Positions 32,621 to 34,525 of a stretch of 64,000 nucleotides of DNA are shown here, one piece after another. The notes below the pieces were generated by a model, which did no database searches, had not been told where the DNA came from, and worked only from the letters and a program-made list of their open reading frames with translations. The stretch's first letter is position 1. Every line of letters starts with the position of its first letter. A program made the position numbers and the translations under genes. Source of the stretch: Pseudacidovorax sp. RU35E (GTDB taxonomy: Bacteria; Pseudomonadota; Gammaproteobacteria; Burkholderiales; Burkholderiaceae_C); assembly GCF_900156165.1 (NCBI RefSeq), contig NZ_FTMY01000009.1, forward strand, positions 1 to 64,000, in the 5' to 3' direction.

Positions 32621-32696
32621 GCGAAGAGAGAGGGCGAGTGCGAGGCTCGGGCATGGCAGGCGGGACAATCGCCCGCTTCGCCTTTCGAGGTCCGCC

Positions 32697-33317
32697 ATGT
32701 ACCTGCCCGCCCATTTTGACGCCGAGGATCCCGTGCTTGCCGCGCAGCTGATGCGCGAACATCCTTTCGCCAGCCTCGTGACCAACGACGACGAGCGCTT
32801 TCCCTTCGTCACCCACCTGCCGCTGGTGCTGGTGTCGAAGGGGCCGGGTGAGTGGACGCTGCTGGGCCATGTGGCGCGCGCCAACCCGCAGTGGAAGCAG
32901 CTGCAGGCGCGGCCCGAGGCGCTGGTCGTCTTCCTGGGACCGCACGGCTATGTCTCGCCGACGGTCTACCCGGACCGCGAGCGGGTGCCGACCTGGAACT
33001 ATGTCGCCGTCCACTGCCGCGTGCGCGCCACCCTGCTGCCGGAGGCCGGTACCAAGGATGCATTGCTCAAGCAGCTCATCGGCCAGCACGAGCCGCCCTA
33101 CGCACAGCAATGGCGCGACCTGGGCGAGGACTACCAGCGCCGCATGCTCGCCGGTATCGTCGCATTCGAGCTCAAGGTCGTCGGCTGGCAATGCAAGCTC
33201 AAGCTCAACCAGCATCGGCCCGAGGCCCATGCCGGGATGCGGCGGCTGCACGCCGCGCAGGGCGGCGAGGCTGCCGGGCTGGGCACCTGGATGGACCGTG
33301 CGGGCGTTGGCGGTTGA
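32697..33317 (+). CDS. FMN-binding negative transcriptional regulator, PaiB-like
   Basis: 206 aa. MYLPAHF at the N-terminus, then HPFASLVTNDD, FVTHLPLVL, GHVARANPQW, FLGPHGYVSP and VPTWNYVAVH are all PaiB family features; the split-barrel fold binds FMN. B. subtilis PaiB represses sporulation and protease genes, but in proteobacteria the role is unclear. Start ATG at 32697 gives the exact family N-terminus. It is followed by the TadA fusion gene only five bases (GTG start) or less away. Confidence 0.9.
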   Translation: MYLPAHFDAEDPVLAAQLMREHPFASLVTNDDERFPFVTHLPLVLVSKGPGEWTLLGHVARANPQWKQLQARPEALVVFLGPHGYVSPTVYPDRERVPTWNYVAVHCRVRATLLPEAGTKDALLKQLIGQHEPPYAQQWRDLGEDYQRRMLAGIVAFELKVVGWQCKLKLNQHRPEAHAGMRRLHAAQGGEAAGLGTWMDRAGVGG

Positions 33318-33322
33318 CGCGC

Positions 33323-34525
33323 GTGATCCGGTCGTCCCCTTCTTCGTCCAGCGGGCCCGCTGAGCCGCACAGCCAGAGCGATGAAGACCATCGCTGGATG
33401 GCCCTGGCGCTCGACGAGGCCCGCGCCGCGGCCGCAGCCGGAGAGGTGCCGGTCGGCGCGGTGCTGGTGCGCGATGGCCGGCTCGTGGCCACGGGCCGCA
33501 ATGCGCCGGTCGCCACCCACGATCCCAGTGCCCATGCGGAGATGGCGGCGCTGCGGACGGCCGGGCAGGCGCTGGGCAACTACCGGCTGGACGGCTGCAC
33601 GCTCTACGTGACGCTGGAGCCCTGCGCCATGTGTGCTGGGGCCATGCTGCATGCACGGCTGAGCCGCGTGGTCTTCGGCGCGGCCGATGCGCGCACGGGC
33701 GCCGCGGGTTCGGTGCTCGATCTCTTCGGCTTCGGCCAGCTCAACCACCAGACGGCAGTGCAGGGCGGCGTGATGGGCGAGGACTGCGGCGCGCTGCTCC
33801 AGGACTTCTTCCGCGCGCGGCGCGCACAGGCCCGGGCGCAGGCGCAGCCGGTGCGCGACGACGCACTGCGCACACCCGAGGGCCGGTTCGATGGCCTCGT
33901 CGCCTTCGATGTACCGCTCGCCTTCACCACCGAGCTGCCGGTGCTGGCCGGGTTGCGGATGGCCTACGTCGATGTGGATCGTCTGTCCGCGCAGGGCACA
34001 GGATCGGCGCGGCGCGGCATCCTCTGCCTGCACGGGGCTGGCCAATGGGGGCATCTTTTCCGCCACATGCCAGCGCTGCTGCCAGAGCGCCGCCTCTTGA
34101 TCCCCGACCTGGTTGGCTTCGGCCGAAGCGACAAGCCCAAGAAGGACGGCGCGCACGCGCTCGACTGGCATGCCGAGGTGCTTGCGGATTGGCTGCTCGC
34201 CTCTGGCATCAGCGAGTTCGGCCTGATCGTCCATCCCGACATGGCCGCACTGGCCGATCGGGTGGTCGAGCGGGCTGCATCAAAAGGCATGGTGTCCGGC
34301 CCCCATCTGGCGCTCCCACAGGCCCTGCTGGCGGTCCGGGGAGCCGAGGCTGAGGAGGCCGCGCGGGCCTGGGCTGCGCCTTTCCCCGACAAGGGCCATG
34401 AAGCCGCCCTTCGCGCCTGGCCGGTGCGCCGTCGGCCGGTGCAGGACCTGTCCGCGGACGCGGCCCGTACGCTGGCTGCGCAGTGGCGGACCCTGGAAGA
34501 GCCGATGGGATACTCCCCCGGGTGA
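33323..34525 (+). CDS. tadA: tRNA adenosine(34) deaminase TadA fused to a degenerate alpha/beta-hydrolase-like domain
   Basis: 400 aa from the GTG at 33323, more than twice a normal TadA. Residues 20-170 are a complete deaminase: HAE (H71, E73), PCAMC (C101, C104), and the helix EVPVGAVLV. TadA converts A34 to inosine in tRNA-Arg(ACG). Residues ~187-365 resemble haloalkane-dehalogenase/epoxide-hydrolase-like proteins: GLRMAYVDVDR, CLHGAGQWGHLFRHMP, PDLVGFGRSDKP and APFPDKGHEAALRAWP. The nucleophile elbow is replaced by IVHPDMAALA and no catalytic His region is seen, so this part is probably not an enzyme. The S66 peptidase gene overlaps the stop (GTGA). A TTG at 33314 is another possible start. 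Confidence 0.88.
   Translation: MIRSSPSSSSGPAEPHSQSDEDHRWMALALDEARAAAAAGEVPVGAVLVRDGRLVATGRNAPVATHDPSAHAEMAALRTAGQALGNYRLDGCTLYVTLEPCAMCAGAMLHARLSRVVFGAADARTGAAGSVLDLFGFGQLNHQTAVQGGVMGEDCGALLQDFFRARRAQARAQAQPVRDDALRTPEGRFDGLVAFDVPLAFTTELPVLAGLRMAYVDVDRLSAQGTGSARRGILCLHGAGQWGHLFRHMPALLPERRLLIPDLVGFGRSDKPKKDGAHALDWHAEVLADWLLASGISEFGLIVHPDMAALADRVVERAASKGMVSGPHLALPQALLAVRGAEAEEAARAWAAPFPDKGHEAALRAWPVRRRPVQDLSADAARTLAAQWRTLEEPMGYSPG

Follow-up and report, generated by a model that had tools for sequence, protein, structure and literature searches.

The tRNA adenosine deaminase TadA of Pseudacidovorax sp. RU35E is fused in frame to the remains of a haloalkane dehalogenase that has lost its active site, and many TadA proteins of the same bacterial family carry this unrelated second domain. 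TadA, from which the adenine base editors descend, is the model tRNA deaminase of bacteria; it edits A34 to inosine and has tRNA-Arg(ACG) as its substrate. The sequences collected here are compatible with an account in which a captured, active dehalogenase gained a role in tRNA editing, its chemistry was lost in some twenty lineages while the same core of about 30 positions was kept, and a second fusion possibly occurred in a neighbouring family. Taken whole, this account is tentative, and we judge it slightly less probable than its negation. If it is true, it would amount to a natural experiment, run in replicate, on how one enzyme becomes a non-catalytic subunit of another, housekeeping enzyme; the intact, dead full-length and trimmed stages are all extant. 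That the dead tail is a retained non-catalytic accessory domain is likely; it may stabilise TadA or bind tRNA or a partner.

The fusion protein of Pseudacidovorax

The fusion is encoded by an open reading frame of 400 amino acids with a GTG start at positions 33323-34525 (+ strand) of the window, by which is meant the whole 64,000-nucleotide stretch of DNA that was analysed. Residues 20-175 match the TadA model NF008113 with 203 bits, above the cut-off of 150, and the TadA domain (residues 1-175; 33323-33847, +) contains H71-A72-E73 and P100-C101..C104, the HAE (71-73) and PCxxC (100-104) motifs that we take to form the zinc site; the zinc-site residues are invariant among 61 aligned fusions. 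The tail (residues 176-400; 33848-34522, +) matches the haloalkane dehalogenase model NF002043 in two stretches across residues 180-400, with 89 bits, below the cut-off of 265, and its match to Pfam Abhydrolase_1 (PF00561) is limited to residues 233-304. A sequence search of the PDB places the haloalkane dehalogenases 1bee, 1edb and 1b6g at the top of the solved relatives of the tail (67 bits), the match consisting of an N-terminal stretch and a weak stretch around APFPD. The AlphaFold2 model of the whole protein has a mean pLDDT of 89.6 and a pTM of 0.70, which leaves the placement of the domains open. Foldseek pairs the TadA part of the model with the TadA structure 1z3a (TM 0.90 by target) and the tail with the haloalkane dehalogenase 7avr (E 2.7e-12, TM 0.50 by target, rmsd 9.1), the last two values making this a partial structural match only. 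The original prediction of an in-frame fusion of TadA to a degenerate haloalkane dehalogenase-like domain, for which it named a structural match to alpha/beta hydrolases as a check, is therefore borne out by the two family models, the PDB search and Foldseek.

The same prediction held that the catalytic residues and most of the cap are missing, and the alignment agrees. In the window's tail P305 stands at the nucleophile column and D306 at the column of the first Trp, the acid and His columns are gaps, nothing aligns with the cap Trp, and most of the cap is missing. The nucleophile elbow (residues 301-311; 34223-34255, +), which reads VVQDWGG in intact relatives, is destroyed and varies within the genus. 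The acid column is likewise a gap in all 14 other genomes of the genus, and their His column is a gap in 12 and Q in two. D306 was considered as a shifted nucleophile and rejected: it is replaced by G, A or S in 3 of these 14 genomes, and the acid and His are absent. A tRNA-Arg(ACG) gene, with anticodon acg, is present in the window's genome, and the A34-to-inosine editing would stay in the TadA domain of the fusion.

Directly upstream of tadA, at 32670-33317, lies a gene for an FMN_bind_2 protein (174 bits). The downstream gene encodes an S66 LD-carboxypeptidase (PF02016/PF17676; 34522-35487, +), whose start is probably the GTG at 34522, overlapping the tadA stop by 4 nt, as judged from the sequence and from the point at which the S66 family match begins. 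The start of the longest S66 open reading frame, at 34483, would give a 43-nt overlap (34483-34525) and is probably wrong. The overlap with S66, which the original prediction had read as a sign of stable co-expression, does not serve as evidence for the fusion: of 36 tail-less relatives, 34 have S66 downstream of tadA as well (in one of them 3.3 kb away), so that this gene order did not arise from the fusion. A 4-nt NTGA overlap with the next start occurs in 48 of 78 loci with shortened dead tails, 26 of 64 with intact tails, 4 of 15 with full-length dead tails and 25 of 36 without a tail.

Distribution and states of the tail

Collection yielded 224 loci, 219 of them with a TadA frame, and 193 distinct TadA sequences; sampling was uneven, many contigs are from MAGs and mostly fused-looking genomes were chosen. 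The number of relatives that share the extension, which had been proposed as a check, is 157 of the 193 sequences under this sampling in favour of fused-looking genomes, with 36 tail-less. By our own criterion, applied to one MAFFT alignment, a tail is intact if its nucleophile column has D, its acid column D or N and its His column H, and on this basis the 157 tails comprise 64 with an intact dehalogenase site, 15 that are full-length but dead and 78 that are shortened and dead. That many relatives possess a complete dehalogenase was not visible from the window sequence alone. Named carriers of the fusion include Pseudacidovorax, Variovorax, Polaromonas, Rhodoferax, Ottowia, Acidovorax and Ramlibacter; Ottowia thiooxydans has an intact fusion, and the soil species Variovorax paradoxus a dead tail. 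In a sample of 200 genomes of the family, loci from 128 gave 103 fused genes (45 intact, 11 dead full-length and 47 dead shortened), 23 tail-less genes and two places without TadA; because mostly fused-looking genomes were sampled, 103 of 200 is a lower bound rather than a rate. A TadA match at E <= 1e-30 is present in 189 of the 200 genomes, with exactly one in each.

The intact tail of L092 matches 2xt0 over nearly its whole length with 329 bits, and in 31 intact representatives the active-site columns are 100% conserved, a figure that for the nucleophile, acid and His is partly given by the class definition but that extends to two columns outside that definition, the Trp that follows the nucleophile and that of the cap, presumably the halide-binding Trp residues of dehalogenases. 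These columns are lost in dead tails. Full-length dead tails show that the residues were lost in different orders, since L084 and L093 keep DWGG and lack the His, whereas L082 has lost the nucleophile and kept the acid and His. Tail lengths fall into three groups (0-61, 178-268 and 291-377 aa), with the addition of one broken tail of 109 aa. This tail, in L177 (genome G068, placed in the dead shortened class), stops in frame at 109 aa and similarity to dehalogenase resumes just downstream on the same strand; it may be a MAG error or a fresh break. Leaving L177 aside, the three shortest tails end 9 residues past the PDxGH motif and the others listed extend 12 to 44 residues beyond it.

Outside the family, none of the 25 dehalogenase loci of the phylum sample has a TadA. 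In the 36 stretches from tail-less genomes, some of them truncated, no dehalogenase gene adjoins tadA. In the order sample the positions of TadA and a free-standing dehalogenase were compared in six genomes: the two lie on different contigs in G526, G548, G558, G685 and G727 and about 255 kb apart in G583.

Repeated loss of the active site

The losses were counted on quick trees with SH-aLRT support only. A tree of TadA and S66, which omits the tail and takes the sequences with an S66 gene (134 of 157 fused and 33 of 36 tail-less), has one group of 134 rows with a support of 100, made up of 132 fused and two tail-less sequences; the fused rows outside it are L100, from the neighbouring family f72 and with a tail identical to that of L300, and L178. 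If loss alone is allowed, this tree requires 21 losses of the active site, falling to 19, 16 and 5 when forks with support under 80, 90 and 95 are collapsed. On a tree of TadA only, the fused rows are not united in a single group, support is low and the intact and dead labels require 31 changes, of which the starred branches force just four for the intact label. Transfer or recombination at the locus could be inflating the count.

A recent loss, useful for experiments, is provided by L033 (intact) and L067 (dead, with a cap-reduced tail), whose TadA genes are sisters with a support of 100. Recombination of the L067 tail was raised by its dS of 2.0 to that of L033; the nearest tail is still that of L033, and the suggestion is unsupported.

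The tail itself has apparently been lost in L102 and L209, which lie within the fusion group of the TadA and S66 tree, and in L208, which is placed so by the TadA-only tree with its open forks. It follows that TadA can dispense with the tail in some lineages. S66 follows closely in L102 and L209, and L208 is near a contig end. The dead-tailed L178 and the tail-less L200 pair inside a tail-less clade of the TadA and S66 tree (support 92, long branches), a pairing that we read as transfer or tree error.

Constraint on the dead tails

Rates were estimated by the Nei-Gojobori method with Jukes-Cantor correction, on pairs that overlap. Conservation of the tail relative to the TadA part, a comparison also proposed with the original prediction, is given by median dN/dS values of 0.335 and 0.156, respectively, in 72 pairs of dead-tailed sequences; in seven intact pairs the values are 0.317 for the tail and 0.402 for the core. 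Retention is bimodal: intact tails have 129 conserved columns, and representatives of the shortened dead tails keep 27 of these at >=90% and 47 at <10%. An out-of-sample measurement was made by choosing 32 columns kept at >=90% in 37 representatives of the 49 shortened dead tails outside the window's own clade, the Variovorax/Pseudacidovorax group, and scoring them in 155 pairs among 28 sequences inside it. These 32 columns have a dN/dS of 0.022, compared with 0.361 for the columns that are lost elsewhere; for the rest of the tail it is 0.411. Purifying selection thus persists in tails with a dead site, at columns picked from other lineages, and the remainder of the dead tail is weakly constrained.

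The kept core begins at the junction motif R178-x-D180-A-L-R-T-P185 (33854-33877, +), present in 97-100% of 36 representatives of the shortened dead tails. It continues with L236-H237-G..W242 (34028-34048, +), the former oxyanion strand and loop, from which the N and P of active relatives have been lost, and with P261-D-L-x-G-F-G-x-S-D-K-P-K273 (34103-34141, +), H278 (34154-34156, +) and H283. It ends with P353-x-P-D-x-G358-H-x-A-x-x-R-A365 (34379-34417, +) at the end of the former cap, soon after which several dead tails stop. Most of the retained residues are conserved in free-standing relatives too and may be kept for folding alone. Three are typical of the fusion. All 36 representatives of the shortened dead tails have K273, against 0 of 40 free-standing relatives; H278, which is Tyr in most free-standing relatives, is present in 97% of the 36 and in 12 of 14 other genus genomes (Leu in the other two) against 3 of 40; and G358 in 100% against 2 of 40. 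Each stands at 97% in the intact representatives; most simply, then, these letters predate the loss of the site. R178 was dropped from this list, as one alignment shows R in 0 of 22 free-standing representatives and another shows it in 7 of 40 free-standing relatives. Alignment is loose at this N-terminal end, which makes differences at residues 178-181 less certain.

Proposed origin and role of the tail

We propose that a haloalkane dehalogenase gene arrived between tadA and S66 in an ancestor of the family and fused in frame to tadA, the place of insertion being suggested by tail-less relatives, which have tadA followed by S66. The complete site would have been kept in many lineages, as judged from the 64 sequences with the full residue set. 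The fused domain would then have gained a second, non-catalytic role through its N-terminal half and the PxPDxGH segment, since residues are kept after catalytic death and three of them are fusion-typical. In lineages with no further need of the chemistry, the active site would have decayed repeatedly, and the cap and C-terminal strands would have been trimmed to leave a half-hydrolase. The most likely role is accessory to TadA itself, the tail stabilising or orienting the deaminase or adding a surface beside the tRNA site. We count in favour of such a role the single TadA per genome (189 of 200), the tRNA-Arg(ACG) and the confident two-domain model, and against it the near-neutral tails, the almost complete lack of fusion-specific TadA residues and the three apparent tail losses.

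The original prediction had likewise seen a non-catalytic hydrolase scaffold attached to TadA, which stands, part of it being under strong selection (dN/dS 0.022). Its suggestion that the scaffold recruits tRNA or a partner, or regulates the enzyme, gains nothing from the data: no excess of positive charge was found in the tails, which are near neutral, and binding of RNA through charge was rejected on that ground. In the TadA part a search for fusion-specific residues returned one weak column only, which does not favour a co-evolved interface.

A less probable but serious alternative is that the retained residues are simply those needed to fold the half-hydrolase, TadA having become dependent on a folded half with no functional gain. 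One retained set recurs across the losses, is mostly shared with free-standing relatives and is accompanied by no changes on the TadA side, all of which fits. However, K273, H278 and G358 differ from the free-standing letters and are kept through catalytic death, which pure folding does not predict, and tail-less relatives exist.

It is improbable that the tail is a passive relic whose frame stays open because an early stop would uncouple translation of S66. The 4-nt NTGA overlap is indeed common, dN/dS is a loose 0.41 outside the retained columns, and the tail-less genes L102 and L209 sit inside the fusion group. Against this, deletion of the tail can preserve the coupling, as in L102, several in-frame reductions end soon after one common segment, and neither the near-invariance of K273, H278 and G358 in shortened dead tails nor the low dN/dS at columns picked from other lineages is what a relic should display. 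Equally small is the probability that the tail still acts as an enzyme, or binds a ligand, through a rebuilt site unrelated to the work of TadA. Dead tails do keep a number of polar residues (H237, W242, D262, S269-D-K-P-K273, H278, H283, D356 and H359), but most of the kept residues are common to free-standing relatives, the nucleophile, acid and His are absent from their old positions in the window, and D306 is unconserved in the genus. An assembly or frame artefact is refuted, as nothing speaks for it in the window's gene and the extension is carried by each of the 15 genomes of the genus, that of the window among them, and by 157 distinct fused sequences; absence from all close relatives, as from an assembly error, was a refuting condition of the original prediction.

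Relation to known systems

The accessory tail that we favour sets the protein apart from its closest solved relatives. E. coli TadA (PDB 1z3a) shares the complete deaminase domain and zinc motifs, but its chain has 168 residues and no added domain, whereas the window protein has a 225-residue hydrolase-derived tail. The haloalkane dehalogenases 1b6g/1bee, DppA (2xt0) and DpaA (7avr), which we take to be of the DhlA type, subfamily HLD-I, share the fold and the N-terminal half; unlike them, the window tail has no nucleophile, acid or His, has lost most of the cap, is joined to TadA and carries K273, H278 and G358. A possible analogy is offered by the eukaryotic A34 deaminase ADAT2/ADAT3 (PDB 7nz7), also a tRNA deaminase with a catalytically dead partner, although there the dead part is a deaminase paralogue and here it is an unrelated hydrolase. 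In Bacillus subtilis the tRNA adenosine deaminase gene is reported to be non-essential (PMC10454642), and on that account essentiality of tadA should not be assumed here.

A search of titles and abstract openings in the open-licence literature returned no description of a TadA-dehalogenase fusion. TadA, haloalkane dehalogenases and pseudoenzymes are all known; their combination, and its repeated decay, may be new. Since intact, dead full-length and trimmed versions coexist, the route from captured enzyme to structural part is testable, including whether the same residues are kept. There is also a consequence for annotation, in that a dehalogenase-like sequence in these genomes can turn out to be the tail of a TadA, and many such tails lack an active site.

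A neighbouring family and stray dehalogenases

Of the five genomes listed for the neighbouring family f72, four have fusions, and in one of these four a stop interrupts the match. Judged on sequence, f72 is perhaps a second independent fusion or perhaps an early branch. A single clade of all fused rows is rejected on the dehalogenase tree (AU p 0.0015). When the clade may also contain L304 and L318, which are free-standing but nested, and L100 and the long rows L251-L253 are removed, the AU p is 0.31, and for TadA the same question gives 0.67, using 45 of 69 fused representatives; the groups in these tests were named after inspection of the data. The f72 loci L299-L302 and L100 have intact triads and free-standing-type letters at positions 273, 278 and 358, and the f72 fused dehalogenase retains an internal Met that resembles a start of its own. 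L304 (genome G685, family f78), a frame of 419 aa that lacks TadA, has a dehalogenase domain nested among the fused ones of the window's family, and it is perhaps a transferred or de-fused copy.
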